Origin: Letharia columbiana | Lineage: Eukaryota; Ascomycota; Lecanoromycetes; Lecanorales; Parmeliaceae | DNA length: 64,000 nt | Direction of reading: 5' to 3' | Assembly (NCBI RefSeq): GCF_014066305.1 | Contig: NW_023501037.1 | Span: 682,001 to 746,000 of the forward strand | Shown: one piece after another, positions 1 through 22,833 of the stretch | Layout of the letters: each line of letters opens with the position of its first letter | Position numbering within the stretch: position 1 is the stretch's first letter | The notes under the pieces: generated by a model | Told to the model about the DNA's origin: nothing | Databases searched by the model: none | The model's input: only the letters and a program-made list of their open reading frames with translations | Translations under genes and position numbers: made by a program

Positions 1-3000
1 ATTCTATAAATACTATATATTTTATAAGATTATTAATAACTCTTACTTACTTCGTCTTTAATTTTCTCTATTATTATTTTATTATAATCGTAGTTTATAC
101 CTTATAGGGGCCGATAGTACGAAAGACGATATATCTATAGATAGTGTATATAGCGTAGATAACTAGTTTTTAATATTGATTATCTCCACTATTCAATTAT
201 AATAAACATTTCCTCGACTAGTTAATAGACCGTTTTAGATAATATATATCTCTACGATTAGAGAGTCGAATTAGTTATTTTTATAAACCTTCTATTAAGA
301 TAAATAATTCGTCTCGAATAACTCTTCGTTTTATTTGACTTTATAATTTATATAACTCTATATCCGATTAATAGTTATCGACCTATTATATATTACTTAA
401 AAATCTATTAAAGATTTATTAAAGATCTATTAGAAATCTATTAAATATCTATTAAAGATCTATTAAAGATCTTTTAATTCTATCTCTATAGATATCGAAT
501 TATTTTAATTAAGTACTACTTTTATTTTATATAATAAACTAGATCTAATTAATACTAATTTATATACGTATCTTATATATTAATAATTACTATTATTTAT
601 AAAATATATTATATAAATAAAAGTAGTTACCCTCTTTACATCCCTCTAATCTTATCTATTTTATTCTCTTATCTATCTTATAATATTTATTTAATCTTTA
701 ACTATTATAAGTTAATTAGTAATCTTTTATTAGTAAAATATTTATAGAGTAATATACTAAGATTAAAAAGCGATATATATTTAATAATATTTATATACTT
801 CTTATATCTACTAGATTAAGTAATTAATAATATTAAAGTATATATAATAAAAGCGTAGATAAATTATATATTTTAATTATACTATATTATCTATATTAAA
901 TAAAATTTTATTTATAATTTAATCGCGTTATAATTAGTATATCTCTTCTATTTATAATATTAACTTATTATATATTAGAAGACTCTTTAAACTTTAAATA
1001 TAAGCGCGCTAAGAATAAAGAAATAAAAAGAAATATATAATAGAAATATAGTATTATTAGATAGGCGATATATTAAAGAGAAAGCTAATATAGAAAATAA
1101 TTTATTAACTTAATTCTCGCTAATAATATAAAAAAATATACTTACTTTTTAATAATAGAAAAGAGAAAAAAAATTAATCTATTTATAATATAAGATTAGC
1201 TATTTAGATTATTATATTATATAAATATTTTTAATATATCTATAAATTAGACTTATAAGTTATTTAATATTATATAGATATTTTTAATATATTTATAAAT
1301 TAGACTTATAAGTTATCTAATTTATAGAATTATAAAAATTATTTATATCCTCTATATCCCCGTTATAATTAACTTATTATTATTATATAATTTAGAATAA
1401 AAGATATTTATATATAAGTCTATTAACGTATTAATGCTTATTACTATAAATATAAATTATAATAATTAATTATCTTTAGTAATTATTAATTTAAAAGAAA
1501 TATTAATTTAGATATAATAATAAATAATATAAAAGCTAAAAGTGTAAAAACGCTAAATAATTATTAATAAAATATAAAAATATTATTATATAAAAGAGCG
1601 CTATTAGCGAATATAAAGAGAGTATAAGAGACTAAGAATAAAAGAGATATCTTAGAAATAATTTAGAAATAACTTATTATACGTTAGAGATATCTTATAG
1701 CTACTTATTATATTTATTTATATAATTAGATTACAAATTAGCTATATCTAATTATTATTATTATAATATAAAAGAATTTAAAAAAAAGATAGTTTATCCC
1801 TCTAATACTTTCTATTTTAATTTATATTAAAATTATTATATAGCTATTATATAAAGACGTTAATATTATAATAGCTAGCTTTTTAAAAAAAGAAATATCT
1901 TAGAAAGTCGTATTAGTACGCTTTTTATATATTCTTATAAATCTAATATTTTAAGTTTACTTTTTCGCTAGATTAGTTAATTTATAGTAAATAAAATATA
2001 AATATAAGATAGAAATATAGAAATTTAATAAAGGGCTTATTTATCTATATTATTTAATTTATAATATATTTAGTAATAATATCTAATAACTCTTATCTTC
2101 TTATTACCTCTATCTTTAAGATATTTTACTTAAAATAAAGTATCGCCTATATTAATAGCTAATTAAAATATCGAAGAATAAAATATTTAACTTATATATT
2201 AGTCTAAAAGTAGATTTATTAATTTATATAAATTAAATATCGTAGTTATAGTTTAATAAAAGAGTTTAATTATCTCTCTTTAAGCCTCCTTTAATTTTAT
2301 TATTACGCTTTTTATAACTTATATATAGAATATAATACTTTCTTATATTAATATCTAAAAGTCTAATAATTTATACTATCTTCGATAATTTTTAATAAAA
2401 AACTTTAAAAATAAGGTTAAGCTTTAATTTTCTAAAGTTCTATATTATAATTACTTTAATAAATAGTTTAATATATTTTTTAAAGAGCTTATATAAGAAG
2501 ATATTATTAACTCGAGCTAAGTCGAAATTTCGAATAATAATAAAATCTTTAATATTAAATATAATTCGATATTTAAATACTCTATTATAATTTATTAATA
2601 ATTATTTATTCTAAATAGCGGTTTTTATAGCTATTATTAAGTTTATATATATAAATAAATAATAAAAATATAAAAGCTATTAAAGGGAGGAGAGTTAGAT
2701 ATCTTATCGATTTATAAAATTAAACTTTTAATATTATTATAATTTAACGCGTCTAGATAAAATAATATTAGACTTTTTATAGTCTATCTTATAAATATAT
2801 TATAATAATATTAAAAATAGATTATCGAGAGTAAGCTAATTAGATTATAAAGATTATTTTAAATTCTTTATAATATATTTATAATTTAAATATTCTAGCG
2901 TTAACGATTTTTTATAAACTATATTTCTAATAATTACTATTTAAAATTAATATAAATTATTTTCTTTAATATTTAATTTAGAATAAAGTAGTAAATTAGT

Positions 3001-4130
3001 TAAAAGAATAAAATACTTTAAATATATTCTTATTATTTTTATAGTTAATCTAGATTTAGTAGATATATATAAATTAATAAAAATAAAGTATAGAGTTTAA
3101 TATAAACTCTTTTTGCTAAGTAGAACCTTTTCTATATCTTAAAAATTAATTTAAATTATTACTTTTTTAAAGAATCTTTTTTATTAAATTAGCGTAAAGG
3201 CGGTAAATAAGATAAATTCTATATATATATCTATATTTAAAAATATCGCCTATATTTATATTATTAATATAAAAGAAATTTTTCTTAATAATCTTTATAA
3301 ATATCTAGAAATATCGATTAAGATAGATATTAATTATTAGTTAGATAATTTTTAAACTAAAATCTTATAAAAGACTAAGGGATTAATATAAAATTAATTA
3401 TAATTTTATTTATTCCTTAAGAATAAAGTAATAATTAAGACTATCTTTATAATATCTCTTCTTAGATTCGCTTTATAATTTTTATATATATTTTTAGCGA
3501 TACGCGATAAGTTAGAAAAGAAGTATTATAAATTAATATAGAATAATAAAGTTCGAGATATTATTTACGATCTCTATATTTATTATTAAATAAAAGAGAG
3601 TAAAGTCGAAGTAATTAATTTATAAGCTATTATTAATAAAAGTATTATAGCTATAATTAATAGAGTAATTAACTTTTTTAAATTAGTATAAATTATTCTA
3701 GCTAAAAATATTCTAACGTTATATATCTAAAGTCTCTTATATATTCTAGCGTTTACTAACTCTTAAATAATTTAATTCTTTAATTAATTTAATTATATTT
3801 TAAAGCTAATATAGATTATCTAATAGCGATAAAAAAAGATATCTATATAAATTCTCTAAGTTAAATTTTTTTTAATTACTACGAAACTACTAGTAACGCT
3901 AATATTCTACTATTCGTTATTAAGGAAAGCCGGCTTAAAGAATATAAAAAAGTTTAATTTCGAGATTTAATAAGCTCTATAAAACGGGGGTACTAGAGTC
4001 TTTAAAGATATATAGAACTCGATATATATAATTTTAATAATTTTAGCTAAAATAGTATATAGTAAATACTTTTTCTAGATTAACTATACTATTAATAAAT
4101 TAATCTCTAACGCTATTTTATTAAATTAAT

Positions 4131-5330
4131 ATCTATTACTCTTAATTTTATATATATAAAAATTAAATATATTTTAATAGAAATACTTTATAGAGATTAA
4201 TAATTATCTTATCTTTTTATTAAAGATTAGCTTTTAATAAGTTTATTTTATAATCTTAAGTAAGAAATTAAAAACTATTAATTTTAGCGATAGAATTAAG
4301 GGCTCTATTTTTATCTATTAATATTATTATAAATTAAGAATCTCGATAAATAGAATATAAGCTATAATTTATAATAAGTTTAGAATATCGTATATAGAGG
4401 ATTTTCTTTAACGATTACTCTATAAAAAATTCGATTAAAAATTAATTTTATTTAGATATTAATATAATAATAGCTATACTCTATTTATAGTATTAATTAA
4501 TTTTTATTTTATATATAAATTAAGTATATAGTATTAAAAGCGATATAGAAAGAGTTTTTTATTATTTTAAATCGATTAATTCTTAATTTAATAAGTACTC
4601 GAGATAAGAATTATTAATAAGATAATTACTTTTATAGTACTTAATTCTAATCTAAAGAATATTAATAAGAAATAATAGAATATTCTTTATTAAACTATTA
4701 TTTAATTTTTATAAAAATATTATTTATTATATAGTTTTAGCGATTTAGTTATATACTAATCTTTAAATATTATTTAAAATTATTATTAAACTTTAATTCG
4801 AAAGTAGATTCTTATAAATCGAGTTTTATATCTTTATAAGAGATATTAAACTAAGAAGTATAATATATAAATCTTTAAGAATCTTTAGAGAGAGCTTTTT
4901 AATTAAATAAAGGTTTATAAGAGTTTTATCTATTTAATATTTAACTTCTTTATAATAATAAGTTAAATTAAGTATAAAATAATAGAGATAATTAAGAAGT
5001 TAAATAATATTATAGAGAATAATAATATAGATATTAGCGATATTAATAATTAAGATAAATTAATAAACTTAAATTTACTATTTAGATAATTTTTTAAATT
5101 TTTATTTATACTCTTTTATCTCTAATTTTATTTAATTTAGCGTTAATTTAATAGAGTTACTCGATATAATCTCTCTTTATAAAAGACCTTTACGCGATAT
5201 TTTATATATACTCGAATATAAGTAATTTACGAATTCGAGTTCCTATAGATTTCTAAATAGAATACCTTCGTTAAAGCGGCTATCTCAGCTAAATAATCAA
5301 ATAAAATAAATAACTTTCAAATCAACAATT
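4131..5330 (+). repeat. Inverted repeat arm A of a ~1.2 kb degenerate element
   Basis: This segment is similar, in reverse complement and with many RIP-type differences, to 10,940-12,129. Shared landmarks are GCTGAGATAGCCGC with AACTTTCAAAT at the inner end (about 5,275-5,330) and TATTACTCTTAATT at the outer end (about 4,131). The inner ends face each other across about 5.6 kb. It may be two inverted copies of one transposon, or the long terminal inverted repeats of one larger element. The class is not recognisable because the coding content is destroyed. Confidence 0.65.
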
Positions 5331-7254
5331 AAAGCTTTTTAAGAAATATTATTTAAAGACTATTCTTCTATAATATAATACTAATAAGATTCTATAGACT
5401 TTTTATACTTTTTATTAAAGTTCTTATCTATAGTATTTTCGAATATTTAATAAACTCTCTATTATTAAAGTTAAAAGCGATTTTCTAGATTATATTAAGA
5501 TCTAATAAAATATAATAATCTATTTATATTATTAAAAGCGGGTTAGAAAGAATAAGACTATTATTATTCTTAAGATTAAAAATCTAATTTATTTATAAAC
5601 TTAATAATTTAAAGGCGTTATAAGGAAACTTTTAACTAATTTTTATTTAAATACTAATTTAATTATATTAATCTATTTAAATAGCTTAAATAGCGAAATT
5701 ATTATAGCTAATAAGCTTAAAAATTCTAATTAAAAGAATATTAAGATTATAGCTTAAATCGATATAAAGATTAATACTCTACTTAATAATTAAATTAAAG
5801 ACTTAATTAAACGAAGCTTAATTAATCTTTACGATTAAATAAATTATTATACTAATTATATTACTCTATAAACCTACTTTTATAAAAATAAGATTATTAA
5901 TTTATCTAAAAAAAAGATTTAAAAGCTATACTTTTTAAATTTAAATTCCTTTTATACTTACTAATATAAACCTACTATTTATACTTATAATTATTAAGAA
6001 TTATAAAAATAAATTTATAATTATAGTATCCTTAGATTTCTTAATATTATATTAAAGTTCGAGATTAATATTATTATAAATAATATTAAATTAATTCTTA
6101 CTAAGTATTATATCTATATTCTTAATTAATCTTAAAATCTTCTAAATATATTTATATAGTTTATAATAAGAAATTATATTATATATAATATAACGCTTAT
6201 AAAATATAGCGTTAATCGCTATTATAATAGATTTTTTAAATTTAATAATTAATAAAATAATTTATTTCTTAATACTATTATTAAACTTAATAATATATTT
6301 CTCGATAATAGAAATTTCTATTATTTACTATTCTAATATCGTTTTATATAAATTTATTTAAAAAAATTCTCGAATTAGATTAATACTTTTAATAATAACG
6401 AGATTCTTAGCTCATTTTATAAATAGATATATATCTTAAAAATTTATTTTCTTATTAATATACTCGATTAATAATTTAATATTAATAGATTTATTATTAT
6501 AGCTAGAATTAAAGAAATTAAGATTATTAGAATTTTAATATATATAATTAAAAACGTTCTCTATTATAATAGCTTTAAGAGATCTTAGCTTATTAGATAA
6601 TTCTTATAAATCTAACTAGCTAAAAATACTACGTAGTAATCCTTATAACGCTATTTATTATAACTATAAAAAACTAATATTTTATTATAATTAATCTTCT
6701 ATTATAGCTAAATTAATTAAATCTTTATAAATTATCTTCTTTATTAAGATTACTCTAATAGTTTAATTAATATCTTTAATAAAATTTAAGATTATACTAG
6801 ATAAATCTAAAGAAGTATCTATTAATAAGATATAAGATATAAAATCTATAGAGGATAGATTATAATTTCTAAAGTATTAAATAAGCTTAAGCTTACTTCG
6901 AAAGTTATATATTCGATTATTAAAAGCTCTAACTATTCTTTAAAAAATAAATTAATTTATAAATTAGCTATATAAGAAAGTCGAGAATTTAATTAACGAT
7001 ATTCTTAAATACCTCGATAATTCTAATATCTACTTCGATTAATAATTATAATTCTAGATAATATAATCGATAGAGTATTTAATAAACTCGAAAATCTCGT
7101 AATAATAGACTCGGTTTATCGTTATGAGAAACTCGTAGATCTAATAGTTAATACTAATAAAATCTCTTACTAGTAATAAAGTTAGCTTAACGATAGCTTT
7201 CTTATTCTAAAGAATCGAGATTCTCATATTAAAGAATTAGAATTCTCGAGATTC

Positions 7255-7620
7255 TTATAACGTAGTAAGGGTGATAGCGGAAAGAGCGAGATTTAAAGAA
7301 TTAGAATTCTCGTGATGTAGAAAGAAATGTAGCGGAAGCGATAAGGATTTAAGGACCTAACTGAATCTTTAATATAGTAAGAACTGCTAATATATCAGAA
7401 GTGTGATGCGTAGTAAGCGGTTATATAATGCTTGCTATGCAATAATCTAATATTGCTACTATTGTTATGGTAGCAGGAAATCAATTGCTATTACTATTAT
7501 AAATTCATGGGTTGAATATAAGACGGTGAGATTCTATAGAGAAATCTACTAATAAGTATTATCTGCCAAGGCACTATAATAGCGCCATCTTCTACCTCTT
7601 CGTTTCTATCTTTCTATTAT
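7255..7620. other. Less RIP-mutated island inside the AT-rich block
   Basis: This segment contains normal numbers of CA and TG dinucleotides, for example around TGCTTGCTATGCAATAATC near 7,430, unlike the sequence on either side. TTAGAATTCTCG occurs twice, about 70 bp apart (near 7,228 and 7,301). It could be a solo LTR or a short insertion younger than the last RIP event, or too short to be a RIP target. No coding potential is visible. Confidence 0.4.
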
Positions 7621-7926
7621 ATTCATAATAATATATTATAATTATTATATTTAAAATTATAATTACTATAAAATCCAATATAAATATAATTTATATACTC
7701 GATTTAATTTAGAAAAGATTTAAACGTTGTAAGAATTATAGAATTATTCTTATTCAAAAGTAAAAATATAGCGAAACGAAGTATTTTATTATTTAGAAAG
7801 ATTATTATTTATTTATAATTATTATAAAAAATAGAAAAAGGCTTTTAGAGATTTTTATAAATTAAATTATTTTTTTAGCGATTTAATATTATATAACGTT
7901 TATATAATTTAATTTTTATATTAATA

Positions 7927-8627
7927 CTGTCCTGGCCATTACTAAAGATATATTACCGTTATATAACGGTTCTATAACTAATAACCGATAAACAACCGAT
8001 GTATCACCGATATACAACCGATATGAAACTCAATTCATACTCGTTAGAAGAATTATTCTAACTCATAATTTCACATCGGTTGTTCAACGGTCACGTGATC
8101 GTCACGTGACAGTTGTCGAACGGTTGTAAAACGGTTGTAAAACGGTTGTAGAACGGTTATACGATTCTTATAGAACTATAAATAATCTATATAATAACTA
8201 AAACAAATTTTTATTTTAAAGTTCTTTATAGGGCTGAAAATTCGCTTAGTATATATAAGCTTAAATATCAACGCTAACAACTTAAAATTCGTTTTTTTCG
8301 AATTTTAGCGAAATTTTTATATTAGAAGATATATTATATAATACTACTAGCCTATTCGAGACTTAGTAAAAATAAAAATAAAAATATTATTATAACCATT
8401 ATAAAACGGTTGTAGAACGGTTGAGAACGGTTGTAAACTATAACCGTAGTGGGTTCTAAGGGAAGAGGTCTTTAGTTTACGACGGTTGTAAAACGGTTGT
8501 AAAACGGTTGTAAACGGTTGTAAACGGTTGTAAATCGGTTCTGACGGTTTTCCAACTAGCATAGACCGTTATAATACCGTTCCATAACCGTTACGCTGTT
8601 CTAAACTTTACAAAGGCGGACGGTAAT
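7927..8627. mobile_element. Putative non-autonomous DNA element with CGGTTGTA subterminal repeats
   Basis: About 700 bp retain normal CA/TG content within RIPed DNA. Two clusters of direct repeats of CGGTTGTA, spaced 8-12 bp apart, lie at 8,117-8,160 and 8,400-8,545; related ACCGTT/ACCGAT motifs lie at 7,950-8,025 and 8,560-8,590. The ends show only an imperfect inverted match (TACTGTCC at the left, complement of TACCGTCC at the right). Clustered short subterminal repeats are typical transposase-binding sites in hAT-like and related elements. No transposase is encoded; the one short open frame here is just the repeat translated. A twin CACGTG motif is at 8,092-8,112. Confidence 0.45.
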
Positions 8628-10939
8628 ACTATATAATTTATATATATTTTTAAAAGATAAAATAAATTTATTTATTTTAATATATATTTTAATTAATTTT
8701 TTAAGATTCTAATATTCTAAGTAATTATAATAAGCGTATTATATATATAAGATTTCTTTATTAATTTAAGAATCTAGAATATTAGCGAATAAGAATAAGA
8801 ATTTAAATTTAGATATAAATATAGATATAGTAAACTTATTATAGATAGAGATATCTTTATTAATAACTATTAAATATATAAAGATCTTTATTTATATATT
8901 TAATATATAAAGATAATTATATTAGTATCTAAAAATAACATTATACTCTTCTACTCTAATATTTTTAAGTATAAATTAAAAGAAATAATTTTAATCTTCG
9001 AGTTACTTTTAAGAAATTAAATTAAAATTACTATTAAAAATATATTAGATATCTTTTATATATAAAATTCGTTTATCTTTAAAACTTTTATATTTAAATT
9101 TAATATATTCGAAATTTATATTTATAGTTAAGCTATTAACTTTATTAATTAAATAATATAATTCAAATAAAATAAAAGTTTAAAAGATTAAGAAGTTATA
9201 AGTAATATATTAAGTATAAATATTATTAATAAATTATAAATATAATAATATAATAGTTATAAATATCGAAGAAGTTTAAATTATAATCTTTAGACTTTTT
9301 TTAATAAAGGAATAATAAACTTAATTTTATAAAGATTAAGAATTAATAATAAAGTATATAATATTCTCTAGATTAGAATTAATATATATTATAAAACTAT
9401 ATATTATTACTAGCTAGATATACGCTATAATAATTTTAATATTACTAAATTAACGATTAGTAATAAATTTATTAATTTAAATATTTTTATTTTTATCTTT
9501 ATTATTTAAGCTAGAAAAATTATTATTATTATTATTATTATTATCGCTATCTTTATTATTATAACTATTATAATCTCTATAATTATTTCGATCTCCCCTA
9601 TTATTATTATTATTTAATTTCTTAAATTTAAAATATAGAATAATATATTTAATATTATTATATTAGTTTTTTTTATAATAATTATAATATTTATAAATTT
9701 AAATATAAGTATAAGAGTTATTATCTTAGTATAGGCTTCTTATTAAATTCTATACTCGATAACTTTATTAATAATAATTAACGTAATAACGCTTTATAGA
9801 TTATATATAAAGGATTTATTAATTAATATAATTAATATATAGACTTTAATATTAATTAAGTTAATAAAATTAATTATAAAATTAATAAATCGAATAATTA
9901 TATAGTTTAAATTAAACTTTATAATATTATTATTTTTAGAAATATTATAATTTTAATTATATTATTTATAATATAAATTATATAAAAAATTTAAGCCTGA
10001 ATAGAAGCGATAAATCTTTTAATTTTTATTAAATTTTGATTTTAAAAATAAGTTATCGAATTTATTTAGAATCTCTATAAATTTATTAATATAAAATTAA
10101 GAGTTATTATTATAATCTATAAGAGTAATATTATTTATTTTTTTAAATATAAAATTAAGAATATTTAAATCTCGAGATTTAAACTTATTTAGAGTCTTCT
10201 AAGCTTTTTTAATATTAATCTTATTTTTAATTTTAAAACGCGATTTTCTTTTATAGCGCGATTTTAATATAATATAGATTTAATTTTATATTTATAGCTA
10301 GCTATTAATCTAAATTTTAATAATAATCATATTAATAATTAATTTTATATATTTTTTTTTAATATAGCGCTATAGTCTAAGTAGCTTTAATTTATTCTTA
10401 AATTATTACTTTTAGATTTAATAATTAAAGATGTTTTTATTACTTTTAGATTTAATAATTAAAGATATTTTTAAACTTATTAATATTATTAAGATAATTT
10501 AAAGAAGCTAAAATTTTAGAATTTTCTAAAAATATAATATTTAAAAACTTAATAAGCTCTCTTTATTAAAGAATAAATTAAATAAACTTACTCTATTAAA
10601 GTTTAAATTTAAAAATAAAGTTTATATATTAATAAGATTTAGAGAAGTAATTAAAGTAAACGATATTAATAAAATTAAGCGCGTTTAAAGATTAAAGAAA
10701 TCTTTATTAGAGATTAATTCTAATAAAGACTTAAAGATTAATTACTCTAATATCGAATTAAAATTAATAAAAAGCTTAATATATATTTACTCTCGCTATT
10801 AAAATATCTCTTATAGTATACTAAAGATTTAAGTATATAAAATAAATCTTATTAAATTTTAAAATTAACTCGATATAGCTTAGATCTTTATTTATAAAGA
10901 TTTATTATTTATTAATATTTAAAATAGTAAATAATATTT

Positions 10940-12129
10940 AATTTGAAAGTTGTTTATTTTATTCGGCTATTTAGCTGAGATAGCCGCCTTAAAGAAGATA
11001 CTTTATCTAGAAATCTATAGAGACTTAAATCTATAAACCACTTATATTTAAGTATATATAGAGTATCGTATAAAGGTCTTTATAGAGGAAGGCTATATTA
11101 AATAACTTTATTAAATTAATATTAAATTAAATAAAATTAGAGATAAAAGAGTATAAATAAAAAATTAGAAAAACTATCTAAATAATAGATTTAGATTTAT
11201 TAATTTATCTTAATTACTAATATCGCTAATATCTATATTTTAATTCTTTATAATATTATTTAACTTCTTAATTATTTCTATTACTCTTTATTCGATTTAA
11301 CTTATTATTATAGAGAAATTAAATATTAAGTAAATAGAGCTTTTATAAATCTTTATTTAATTAGAAAACTCGCTTTAAAGATTCTTAAATATTTATATAT
11401 TATATTTCTTAATTTAATATCTCTTATAAAGATATAAAACTCGATTTATAAGAATTTACTTTTAAATTAAAGTTTAATAATAATTTTAAATAATATCTAG
11501 AGATTAATATATAATTAAATTATTAAAATTATATAATAAATAATATTTTTATAGAGATTAAATAATAGTCTAATAAAGAATATTTTATTATTTTTTTATT
11601 AATATTTTTTAGATTAAGACTAAATATTATAAAAGCGATTATCTTATTAATAATTTTTATTTTAAATATCGAGTTAAGAATTAATCGGTCTAAAATAATA
11701 ATAAACTCTTCTTATATCGCTTTCGATATTATATACTTAATTTATATATAAAATAAGAATTAATTAATACTATAAATAGAGTATAATTATTATTATATTA
11801 ATATTTAAATAAAATTAATCTCTAATTAAATTTTTTTATAGAGTAATTATTAGAGAAGATTCTCTATATATAATATTTTAAATTTATTATAAATTATAAT
11901 CTATATTTTATTCGCTAAGACTTTTAATTTATAATAATATTAATAGATAAAAATAAAGCCTTTAATTCTATCGCTAAAATTAATAGCTTTTAATCTTTTA
12001 TTTAAGATTATAAAATAGATTTATTAAAATTAATTTTTAATAAAAAAATAAAAAAATTATTAATCTTTATAAAGTATTTCTATTAAAATATATTTAATTT
12101 TATATATATAGAATTAAGAGTAATAAGTA
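10940..12129 (-). repeat. Inverted repeat arm B, abutting the coatomer gene
   Basis: This is the reverse-complement counterpart of 4,131-5,330. Its outer end stops at about 12,129, immediately at the last coding base of the truncated coatomer alpha gene, and contributes to that gene's stop codon. The copy either inserted into the gene or marks a rearrangement breakpoint. Element class unknown. Confidence 0.6.
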
Positions 12130-14927
12130 CTAGTTGGAATGGGAGGCTGCTTTCACCGGCCAGTTGGCTTTGTGTGTGTGAACAATAGGTCTTGGTGGTT
12201 TCAATGGCTTGCCCATCGTAGGCAGAGAGATTTGATCTTCCGTCAGCCCACTAGCCTCAAGCATTGTTTGGCATTCGTCCTCAAGTCCAGCGGCTTTGGC
12301 TGTCGCATATGCCAGAGGGTCTGCGCTGGTTAGCGTCGAGTCTTATGAAAGAGCGGCTGGTGCGAAAGACTTACATAGGTCGAGGTCCTGAAGCATTTGA
12401 ACCCGGGCTTCGACGTCTCCCAGATACAAAGCATTTTGGAAGCGCGATTGGAAGTCACCACGGTGCTCCGCGATCTTGGCCATTCGGGCAAGCTTCTCTC
12501 CGTCGCCCGTTGAAAGATATAGGAAGGACAATTTGTCAAATTGCCGAAGTTTCTGGTAAGTCATTTCCACGATCGTGTGATTTCCGTGCGCCAGGGCCTC
12601 AGTACCCAGTCGGGTCCAAAGCTTGGGTCGGTCAAGCTGCTTAGCCATTTCCACAGCGACATCAAGGTTGCCGCACTCTATAGCAAGCTCAAATCTGGTC
12701 TGAGGGTCTTGCACAAATTGGAGAGCAATCTCTGGGTACCCCTTCTTCTGCAGGTACGAGATGATGCTTTGACCGACAAGACTCGATGTTTTAATAATCT
12801 GCAGCATCTCTTCGTAGTTTCGCTTGACAAGAGCAAGTTTGAAACGATATTCCGTGGGGTCAACGTCTAGCACTTTCGGTTTTGAGGCCCGATCCAAGCA
12901 GTATACACTTCGAGCTTTGACTCGCACTAGGTACACGGTCTGGTCGAGTGTTCTGACAATGCCATTGTCTCTGCAATGAAGTTAGCGCACTCCTTCAAAA
13001 GATTTACTCTGCCTACCCATTGAGTAATGTGTATTTGATATGATTAAGGGTCGAGTATAGAAGTACGCCGGCGTCATCCCATGCTGCAGATTTGATTCGG
13101 ATCGTCTCGTGAAGCGTACTGACTTGCTCTAAAGACTTCGTAACAATCGTGACGTTATGCTTGCTAAGTAGAGCTGCGTAAAGCCCATCGCTCGACCAGA
13201 CAACGTATTTGACCCCAGCGACTGCTAGCTCAGAAAGCTGCTTCTTTTGCTGAATATCGTAAAGAACCACAGATGTAGCAGTAACCAAAAGAATGCATCC
13301 AGTCCCCCCGAAAAATACATCCGTGGTCCCTGGAGGTGGCTTGATGGTTTTCGTCGTCGAATTTGTGAGATCTTTGATGTCCACTTGCTGACTTGACTGG
13401 GTGAACACTGCGAATCGATTGCGTGCCACGAATATAGCAGAATTGCCTTGGCCCTTCTTAAAATCTGTGGGCTCAATCGCTCCAGATGCATCACGAGGGA
13501 GAGGGATCAGCTCGTAAGTACCATTGTCAATAGGGGACGTCACGAGTACGGCTCGCTCGGCTGGATTATAGGAAAGAGTCCTAGGTGGTACCCATGGACT
13601 GCCGAATTTCCGGAGAGACAAGATCGCAGGGGACTCGGCGTTCTTCGAGAAGTCGTACGAGCGTACGAACTTCTCTTTCGTGATGTAGAATAGCTGATTT
13701 TGATAATTGGCAGAGGCAGGCCTCTCTCTTTCCAGCTTGAAAACCATGACTCCATTGTCATGTCCAGCAGCGAACAGGTTTATCTCGGGATGAGCTGCGA
13801 TAACCCAGAATCGATCGTTCTCGCGCTTAAACGACTGGACAGATGTCCGCTTGTTCAAGTCCCAGACCCGAATTGTTTTGTCTTCGCCAACTGAAAGAAT
13901 GAGGTCCTGGTGAGGATGGAACAGACAAGCTGAAGAGTTCTGGAAATGACCGCGACAGGTGTCCACTTCCCAAGCCTTGGTTTCTGTATGAAGTTAGTGC
14001 TACAATCGAAATGGAATTGCTAGCAGGCCTACCGCTCATTCTCCACAGCTTGACGAGTCGATCATCGCCCGAGGAGACGATCAATGGCAAAGTTGGGTGA
14101 AATGCGACCCAGTTCACGCCTCTGTCATGGCCCTCTAGAACAAACTTGACCACCGCATCTGTATTACCGAACATGTCCGCTTGGTTCGAATTGGCGCGAG
14201 CCATTTGGTCTTCGAAGGTCAAAGATGTGGGAGCAGATTGCTTTTTGCGTAGCCCCGAGATGTCCCAAACTCGCACTGATTGATCCAATGAAGCAGAGAC
14301 GATGAGATCATCCTTGGGGTGGAATTGGGCGCACATGGTGTAGTGGTTATGCCCTGTCATCGTACAGACTAGCAAAAGGATATCAGCTTACGCTTCGCCG
14401 TAAGAAGCTTCTCCACTTACTCAGAGACCTGTTCTGCCAATTCCATATCCGGATTGTTTGGTCGTCCGAGCTTGACAGTATCCAAGGAAGTTCATGGTGG
14501 AAAAAGACAGTCCGAACGTAGTCCAAATGGCCATTCAAGGTGAAGAGACATCTTCGGCTCTGATACGACCAGACCTTGATCTTGTAATCGTCCCCCCCAG
14601 ATACGAATAGCGGTTGTGTCTTGTGGAAGTCTATGCCTCTGACGGGTCCATCATGCTCCTCGAACCGATCTATCAGGGTACCCATCCGGTAGTCCCATAG
14701 CTGAATCGTGGAGGAATGTAAGGAGACCAGTATCCAAGGTCTGGGATGGGTCAGCTTGGAGAAGGACTCGGAGGCAGGCTGGGCAATGTGCGGACCTCTT
14801 TGGGTGGAAAGCAATGCCTTTTGCTCTTGAGGATTTGGACTCGAACTTATTACAGAAATTGATATTAGCCTGGACTTTGGATTCTTTGAAGAAACACTGC
14901 GTCATGGTGTGCTACCTTTGTGAGCAT
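12130..14927 (-). pseudogene. COP1: Coatomer subunit alpha (COPI), 3' truncated
   Basis: Coatomer alpha is a scaffold of the COPI coat that mediates Golgi-to-ER and intra-Golgi retrograde transport. Seven exons can be placed: 14,927-14,916, 14,845-14,796, 14,740-14,421, 14,368-14,033, 13,983-13,017, 12,970-12,375 and 12,320-12,130. They total 2,472 nt with frame kept throughout (823 residues). The N-terminal WD40 propeller ([45 protein letters not shown]) is followed by the coatomer WD-associated and helical region (YPEIALQFVQDPQTRFELAI). The family is about 1,200 residues long; the last ~390, including the C-terminal domain that binds epsilon-COP, are missing. The frame ends in ...KAASHSN-TAG, with the TAG made at the junction to RIPed repeat DNA. 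No internal stop or frameshift is visible, so truncation is recent or this is a partial duplicate. The first intron uses an unusual AAG acceptor, chosen because it gives the conserved MLTKFESKS start. Confidence 0.9.
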
Positions 14928-22038: not shown

Positions 22039-22048
22039 AAAAAAAAAA
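22039..22048 (-). terminator. RNA polymerase III terminator (T10)
   Basis: Ten A residues on the + strand give T10 directly after the discriminator base of the tRNA on the minus strand. This is a strong Pol III terminator and argues that the tRNA gene is transcribed to its mature 3' end. Confidence 0.85.
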
Positions 22049-22188
22049 TGCCCATTCTCGGAATCGAACCGAGGATCTTTTCATTATCAAGGATTTGCCT
22101 ACGAGTGAAACGCAGTACTACGAAGCATTAACTTTGATCTCCGCGAACAAGGGCGATATTGTTTTCTTACCCACTATGCCAAACGGGC
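22049..22188 (-). tRNA. tRNA-Thr(CGU) with a 15-nt canonical intron and a 53-nt D-loop insertion
   Basis: Read on the minus strand, GCCCGTT (22,188-22,182) pairs with AATGGGC to form the acceptor stem, the B box GGTTCGATTCC is perfect, the A box TGGCATAGTGG is perfect, and T10 follows. The anticodon stem TTTCA/TGAAA encloses the loop CT-CGT-A, interrupted after position 37 by 15 nt (22,099-22,085), the normal site of eukaryotic tRNA introns. A second insertion of 53 nt (22,170-22,118) lies within the D-loop. It begins GTAAGA and ends CGTAG. Removing it gives a 3-bp D stem (GCA/TGC) and a nine-base loop, and the total becomes exactly 72 nt. Neither insertion contains TTTT, so Pol III should read through. 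Alternative: a tRNA pseudogene with a random insertion, but intact stems, boxes and terminator argue against it. Confidence 0.8.
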
Positions 22189-22833
22189 AACGTACATTAT
22201 TTTGGTGTTATTTATAACTATATTCATTATAGCAACTAAGATCTAAATCTGAGTATACTCGTGTGGCCGAGAAGTCTATCATCTTGGCAGTCTAGCTTAG
22301 ATAGGTTAGCGCTATAGATCATAGGCATAAATTCAGTGTCCAACTGCGGAGGAACGAGATAGTCTGATTGGTGGGTACTCCCGCGCCGGACTGATAAGGT
22401 TGTCGCGAAAATTCTTGGCAAAATATGACTTCTGGCTTGTCTCCGCGCAATCTCATTCTCAACATGAGCTATTTTCTGCACAGGTAGAGTTCGGGTATAT
22501 ATCTTTTTACGTATCTATTCACGTGTACTGGTTACTACTTAGATTGAGTATGCACATGCTACTATATGTACTATCTATATAGTACTGTACTTGAACGGAA
22601 TAACACTTATTCATTACTACCTACCTCCTCCTCCACGGCAGTCAAGCTTTATCGACCTTCCGGAACGCCACGCACCCAGAACGCGGCATGGTATCTAAAG
22701 CACGCATCTTGATGTATGTAGTGCCGACGTGTATTTGGCATCACGCATTGCCCTTCCTCCATCCACTTTGCCTTGCTTTTGCATTGGAGTTGCTTCCACA
22801 CAAACAGTTGCGCTTGTAGCGGATAGACGTTGC
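22189..22833. other. Intergenic region between tRNA-Thr and the Kelch gene
   Basis: Roughly 640 bp between the tRNA 5' end and the 3' end of the Kelch gene. Nothing resembling a gene, RNA or repeat is recognised beyond local AT-rich stretches (22,490-22,580). Confidence 0.4.

Follow-up and report, generated by a model that had tools for sequence, protein, structure and literature searches.

The window, by which is meant the whole 64-kb stretch of DNA analysed here, carries on its reverse strand a 140-bp precursor gene for tRNA-Thr(CGU). The gene was read from its letters and from the ARAGORN call on its spliced form, and its parts and flanking signals are as follows.

22211..22216 (-): upstream TATAAA, 28 nt from the gene start
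22049..22188 (-): tRNA-Thr(CGU) precursor gene, 140 bp
22171..22188 (-): exon 1, 18 nt, with the 5′ strands of acceptor and D-stem and the D-loop as far as GG
22118..22170 (-): D-loop insert, 53 nt, GT-AG, a very probable U2-type spliceosomal intron
22127..22131 (-): TTAAT within the insert, branch-site-like; putative branch A at 22128, 10 nt from the intron end
22100..22117 (-): exon 2, 18 nt (remaining D-arm, 5′ anticodon stem, anticodon CGT)
22085..22099 (-): intron of 15 nt at the canonical 37/38 position, non-GT-AG
22049..22084 (-): exon 3, 36 nt, from the 3′ anticodon stem through the variable loop and T-arm to the 3′ acceptor strand and discriminator A
22039..22048 (-): T10 run, like a Pol III terminator

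The original prediction had placed at this locus a Thr(CGU) gene with a 53-nt insertion in its D-loop and a 15-nt intron at 37/38, together with an A box, a B box and a T10 terminator, and the coordinates and letters agree with it throughout. The B box reads GGTTCGATTCC and the A-box letters are unbroken in the DNA, while exon 2 ends one base 3′ of the anticodon CGT. The 53-nt insert runs GTAAGA...CGTAG (also given as GTAAGA...TTAATGCTTCGTAG) and sits in the D-loop, away from the 37/38 position that the 15-nt intron occupies; by eye, its boundary can slide by one base with the same product, and the GT-AG phase is one of the two. A branch-like motif had been predicted about 10 nt before the AG and is there, as TTAAT with its A 10 nt from the end, though it is weak next to the CTRAY found in 18 of 22 related inserts (see below) and is among the weakest of that set. 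Removal of both inserts leaves the predicted 72 nt, which ARAGORN calls Thr(cgt), whereas with the D-loop insert kept the program is silent unless its intron mode is used, and the Rfam tRNA model gives a partial match of 14.7 bits against a gathering score of 29.

Interrupted tRNA genes in the Letharia assembly

The Letharia genome assembly (52.2 Mb in 161 contigs, from one lichen fungus of the Parmeliaceae) contains at least 22 such inserts in at least 17 kinds of nuclear tRNA gene, and these inserts are real, non-random and of one kind. Proteins encoded near two of the genes have relatives in the same family. The window encodes a fork-head protein with 84% identity to one from Cornicularia normoerica and 81% to one from Alectoria fallacina, and an eIF4E-type protein adjoining the Lys(CUU) gene on its contig shares 91% identity with one from Imshaugia aleurites; Cornicularia and Imshaugia belong to the Parmeliaceae in the Lecanorales, which are lichen-forming fungi.

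The kinds were found by three routes. A scan for stems and box letters, with no splice signals required, recovered six: Thr-CGU, Thr-AGU, Ser-AGA, Trp and Ser-CGA, with extra pieces of 51–55 nt, and Ser-GCU as the sixth. Arg-UCU, Lys-UUU, Gln-CUG (two inserts), Lys-CUU (four) and Arg-CCU were read by eye at further B-box places, and a scan that excised GT-AG or GCAAGT-AG pieces yielded Arg-UCG, Leu-UAA, Ile-AAU (two inserts), Met, Tyr and Phe. The inserts lie in the D-arm (Trp, Arg-UCU, Lys-UUU, Lys-CUU and Ile besides Thr-CGU), the anticodon arm, the variable loop or arm (Thr-AGU, Ser-AGA, Ser-GCU) and the T-arm (Arg-UCG, Leu-UAA and Arg-CCU, with that of Ser-CGA in the T-stem). Once spliced, the genes are 71–82 nt long. 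Two of them are divided into exons that are small for a spliceosome, 7–28 nt in Lys(CUU) and one of 5 nt in Gln:

C33:162450-162950 (L095): Lys(CUU), whose four mRNA-type introns separate exons of 10, 7, 10, 18 and 28 nt
C62:134650-135150 (L097): Gln(CUG) with a GT-AG and a GC-AG insert around a 5-nt exon, plus a 37/38 intron

The two Arg genes with anticodons UCU and CCU have identical exon letters in the D-arm, and the insert follows nt 15 in Arg(UCU) and nt 49 in Arg(CCU). The 17 kinds are represented by 18 genes in that Ser-CGA occurs twice, in copies (L087 on C53 and L091 on C81) that agree at 99% for 1.8 kb and at 93% for the 1.2 kb that follow; either the gene was duplicated or the assembly contains a second haplotype.

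For comparison, 18 insert-free tRNA genes were read after exclusion of the mitochondrial contigs C94 and C110. The expression 'about half' used below thus stands for 18 of the 36 genes read and is no census: the box patterns do not pick up all genes equally well, and the reading never came upon several isoacceptors, Asn, Asp and initiator Met among them. With one box pattern about the first 100 of 131 matches were covered, and a repeat of this listing without redundancy dropped genes with short trailers. Pattern loci with no convincing nuclear tRNA (L080, L096, L098, L100-L104, L106-L113, L116, L118-L123 and L126-L132) were kept out of the counts, as were further loci from the same listings; L021 and L070 were put aside as mitochondrial-like by eye, and L073 because it yielded no model. 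B-box-like letters also occur in repeats. The B-box-like GGTTCGATTCC followed by letters like TAATGGCGCTGGTACAATGG is present in many copies on C2, C3, C4, C5, C12, C24, C25, C32 and other contigs and may be a tRNA-related or some other repeat, and a second repeated B-box-like sequence, GGTTCGACCCCGTCATGTACGGGGCGAAAAACATTTT, is found with its variants on C1, C3, C9, C14, C19, C48, C77, C82, C83 and C153.

Likeness of the inserts to mRNA introns

The inserts form a narrow class. They are 49–58 nt long (mean 53.3, sd 2.2, n = 22), and 21 have GT-AG and one GC-AG ends, the latter with GCAAGT as its 5′ end, all of which are ends of the U2 type. At the 5′ site +3 is A in 18, +5 is G in 19 and +6 is T in 17 of the 22. 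CTRAY is present in 18 inserts (CTAAC in 11, CTAAT in 3, CTGAC in 3 and CTGAT in 1), and the branch A lies 9–18 nt from the 3′ end, as in U2-type introns. Some of this regularity is owed to the search: the ends of 11 of the 17 kinds are not independent evidence because these were found by eye or by a splice-signal scan, and the presence of a branch motif is partly built in because the excision scan already asked for a loose branch-like motif and the motif given for each insert is the best among its candidates. The CTAAC majority and the narrow branch distance are not products of the scan criteria.

The measure for mRNA introns was taken from one protein gene in the window, with junctions picked by eye among several in-frame options:

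12321..14795 (-): stretch of an alpha-COP-like gene with five mRNA introns
14795-14741, 14420-14369, 14032-13984, 13016-12971 and 12374-12321 (-): the five introns, exons joined in frame

Two of its exons match the Pfam families COPA/B propeller and COPA/B TPR. The five introns are 46–55 nt long and each has CTRAY 9–14 nt from its end, so that the tRNA inserts resemble them in both size and signals. The 53 nt in Thr(CGU) falls within this range, as had been predicted, and the spliceosomal look first remarked on in its D-loop is borne out by 16 more kinds of tRNA gene with mRNA-intron-like ends, length and branch motif. The alpha-COP-like gene itself (12133-14901 on the reverse strand) runs at about 12.1 kb into a block of 14–20% GC that occupies positions 1-12000 of the window, where its frame stops as if an AT-rich, RIP-like block had cut the gene short or split it; a second low-GC block, of 21–25% GC, lies at 54–62 kb.

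The introns of eukaryotic nuclear tRNA genes are generally known from position 37/38, where a protein endonuclease excises them and a ligase rejoins the halves. A control set of 22 introns at that position in Letharia measured 7–39 nt, and none had GT-AG ends (some ends are approximate). Canonical introns in general have no branch motif either and keep to their fixed place. In Letharia the two classes coexist, in 12 of the 17 inserted kinds within one gene. It is nevertheless conceivable, albeit very improbable, that the inserts too are tRNA introns, of a non-canonical type cut by the tRNA splicing endonuclease at sites resembling a bulge-helix-bulge (BHB), as in the red alga Cyanidioschyzon and archaea. 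For C. merolae, PMC3978253 describes ectopic and multiple tRNA introns in the D-loop, the T-loop and elsewhere, with most of the tRNA set disrupted, and in lying outside the anticodon loop these introns and those of the Guillardia theta nucleomorph are like the inserts here. The C. merolae introns, however, are BHB-mediated and many of the Guillardia ones have no defined BHB (PMC3978253), whereas the inserts have ends, a length and a branch motif of the mRNA-intron type, unlike the 37/38 introns of the very same genes. A four-pair BHB central helix could be formed at 2 of the 22 insert junctions versus 6.3% of random places, a measure that does not tell the two classes apart, since the canonical introns gave 0 of 12.

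Copies, cloverleaves and alternative folds

If the interrupted genes were dead or dying, functional tRNAs would have to come from intact copies, missing from the assembly or among the kinds not searched for, or from wobble, and we give this about as little credence as cleavage of the inserts by the endonuclease. In its favour, the assembly has 161 contigs and a diverged sequence as its sole 5.8S rRNA match, and hence its repeats at least are incomplete; the search for intact copies, moreover, covered 3 of the 17 kinds. For those three, namely Thr(CGU), Trp and Lys(CUU), BLAST of the spliced tRNAs against the assembly returned only pieces of the interrupted genes and no intron-free copy. The unspliced Thr(CGU) gene likewise found no second copy of itself, and the original prediction had named an intact copy, together with transcripts showing the insert retained or the gene silent, as something that would count against it. 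Trp has a single codon; unless the assembly lacks a copy, its gene must therefore be functional. The codons concerned are common ones, with ACG at 14.5, UGG at 14.0 and AAG at 23.0 per 1000 in three ORFs of the window. Decay is also at odds with the stems, which remain paired around the inserts in all 17 kinds with few exceptions (one D-stem mismatch in Lys-UUU and one anticodon-stem mismatch each in Met and Tyr). An intron-bearing Phe pattern had no match in genome_contigs or viral_contigs, nor a Trp pattern in viral_contigs, as is expected of collections without fungi.

Excision of the inserts restores a tRNA cloverleaf in 17 of 17 kinds. Without its intron mode, ARAGORN called none of the 17 precursors and none of them with only the 37/38 intron taken out, and it called all 17 when fully spliced, with amino acid and anticodon as read. 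The Rfam tRNA model at its gathering score found one of the ten loci tried. Together these figures imply that tRNA genes in lichen genomes may be undercounted. In intron mode all 17 fully spliced genes were called, as were all 17 with the GT-AG pieces removed and the 37/38 intron kept, 15 of these as expected and Ile and Phe with a shifted anticodon.

The same program provides the case for a simpler fold, in which one long anticodon-loop intron accounts for each gene and nothing is inserted in the D-, T- or variable arm. In intron mode it called 9 of the 17 precursors, always in this way. The expected anticodon was kept in six, with introns of 36, 89 and 49 nt at the ordinary position 38 in Thr-AGU, Ser-AGA and Ser-GCU, and with the intron before the anticodon in Gln, Met and Phe; Ser-CGA and Tyr were given a wrong anticodon, and Thr(CGU) became an Ile(GAT) tRNA with a 63-nt intron. 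The Rfam model, too, accepts unspliced Thr-AGU (53.5 bits) and Ser-AGA (42.2 bits). Yet the other eight precursors (Arg-UCG, Leu-UAA, Arg-CCU, Trp, Arg-UCT, Lys-UUU, Lys-CUU and Ile) were not called at all, and in Thr-AGU the GT-AG cut restores the full anticodon stem and scores 20.5 versus 18.8 in our own matcher. The original prediction had foreseen a single conventional intron as a possible refutation, but the version of it that ARAGORN offers is an Ile tRNA with the anticodon GAU, which the passage on this anticodon in PMC3978253 attributes to prokaryotes and, among eukaryotes, to C. merolae alone. As the common ends, branch motif and length would also stay unexplained, a single long intron per gene is less credible still than either endonuclease cleavage or gene death.

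Where the pieces must be cut was also asked directly of the cloverleaf. In a free-excision test all cuts within 4 nt of the called length were compared, with the 37/38 intron removed first, padding, and stricter tRNA rules, and the called GT-AG cut was among the best tRNA-restoring cuts in 13 of the 13 scorable genes among 14 with a single insert, Lys-UUU being without a score owing to the A-C mismatch of its D-stem. Multiplied together, the chances that a GT-AG pair falls there come to about 1e-15 for the 13 genes and about 1e-5 for the six kinds found blind to splice signals, or about 1e-4 for the latter when the prompting Thr gene is left out. An unpadded version of the test left 3 of the 14 unscored (Arg-UCG, Trp and Lys-UUU) and put the called intron outside the top set in five (Thr-AGU, Ser-AGA, Arg-UCU, Met and Tyr). 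A scan for places where a tRNA scoring 19 or more is restored by the excision of a single GT-AG piece with a branch-like motif had the Thr(CGU) gene as its single hit in the 64-kb window and no hit in 912,000 strand-bases resampled from the window with a first-order Markov chain. The corresponding two-insert scan, which recovers both of its positive controls, the Gln and Ile genes, found nothing either in 910,000 resampled strand-bases or in the real window.

We attach the least weight of all to degenerate group I introns, abundant as these are in lichen rRNA genes (PMC8527467), or copies of a recent introner-like mobile element as the source of the inserts, since all 22 begin with GT or GC and end with AG within 49–58 nt and since their pairwise similarity is close to that of shuffled letters (mean local score 7.8 vs 7.2), leaving no visible recent spread of one element.

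A predicted spliceosomal step in tRNA synthesis

The preferred reading is that the 53-nt insert of Thr(CGU) is a U2-type spliceosomal intron in a working tRNA gene, and that at least 22 such introns are spread over 17 kinds of gene. Judged from position, ends, branch motif, length, the restored cloverleaf and likeness to mRNA introns, and from the failure to find an intronless Thr(CGU), Trp or Lys(CUU) gene, this is very likely to be correct.

The Thr(CGU) gene is presumably transcribed by Pol III, in view of its upstream TATA, its B box, its T-run terminator and the lack of a T5 run inside. The other genes have similar signals. A TATA starts 28–43 nt upstream in 13 of the 17 and at −49 to −53 in one more, with none within 60 nt in three. 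Of the 17, 16 have a listed run of at least five T in the 60 nt that follow the gene, the exception being Trp, with three listed runs, all of them T4. The longest T run inside any precursor is four, although the scarcity of T5 runs in the inserts (0 seen vs 2.4 expected, P 0.07) is not significant. The insert splits the A box in four kinds (Arg-UCU, Lys-CUU, Gln-CUG and Lys-UUU), for which reason the upstream TATA may matter more; in Schizosaccharomyces pombe tRNA genes an upstream TATA is known to matter.

In the proposed pathway Pol III would transcribe the interrupted gene, and the spliceosome would recognise the short GT-AG intron and excise it before the cloverleaf is able to fold. What has become an ordinary precursor would then be processed by RNase P, by the modification enzymes and, at the 37/38 intron, by the tRNA endonuclease and ligase. 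The GT-AG pieces are placed first in this order since RNase P and the endonuclease rely on the D-arm, T-arm or variable arm that these pieces disrupt. Making tRNA in this fungus hence seems to need the mRNA splicing machinery. It is likely that expression of about half of the nuclear tRNA genes, among them the one Trp gene found and a Lys gene in five exons, requires the spliceosome, which would add a further class of nuclear tRNA intron and make translation directly dependent on mRNA splicing.

The U6 snRNA gene of S. pombe contains a spliceosomal intron. The original prediction had named this among its precedents, aptly in that an mRNA-type intron lies in a Pol III gene, the product there being an snRNA and part of the spliceosome itself. 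Spliceosomal introns in nuclear rRNA genes of lichen-forming fungi were reportedly described by Bhattacharya et al. in 2000, and these provide the nearer precedent. According to PMC8527467 they are 'ectopically' placed in lichen rRNA and are removed, and when a 57-bp rRNA intron of Cladonia grayi was transplanted into yeast rRNA, with a single base of the 5′ site changed, it was spliced out. They share with the inserts in Letharia a lichen-fungal host, a size class, the 5′ GUAAGU, a yeast-like branch and 3′ site, and a transcript other than mRNA (PMC8527467). They differ in that they interrupt a long host RNA made by Pol I, whereas here up to four lie in each Pol III-type gene of 71–82 nt.

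Among the titles and abstract openings listed from the open full text of PubMed Central, a scope exclusive of subscription papers and preprints, no report of spliceosomal introns in tRNA genes was recognised. The main text of PMC8527467 has no word beginning with tRNA, the single main-text mention of tRNA in the C. grayi genome paper (PMC6652019) stands in the organelle part of a table, and the passages on tRNA in PMC11782384 deal with archaeal-type and group I introns. Should the present reading be true, mRNA-type introns across nuclear tRNA genes would be a further class of their own and the spliceosome would have as its substrates very short RNAs made by Pol III, with exons of as little as 5–7 nt. 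This raises the questions of whether splicing by the spliceosome depends on Pol II or a cap, of how spliceosomal introns are gained (as between Arg(UCU) and Arg(CCU)), and of whether lichens slow their translation by means of ectopic introns, as proposed for those of rRNA (PMC8527467).

Two observations concern the assembly's other RNA genes. Intact rDNA seems to be absent from it, and its sole 5.8S rRNA match (C7:26657-26811, L093; 49.8 bits) is diverged and lies in an AT-rich setting, like a mutated rDNA relic. The mitochondrial-like contig C94 has the same set of tRNA genes close to both of its ends (at about 2–16 kb and 92–106 kb) and is probably a circle that was assembled past its start.
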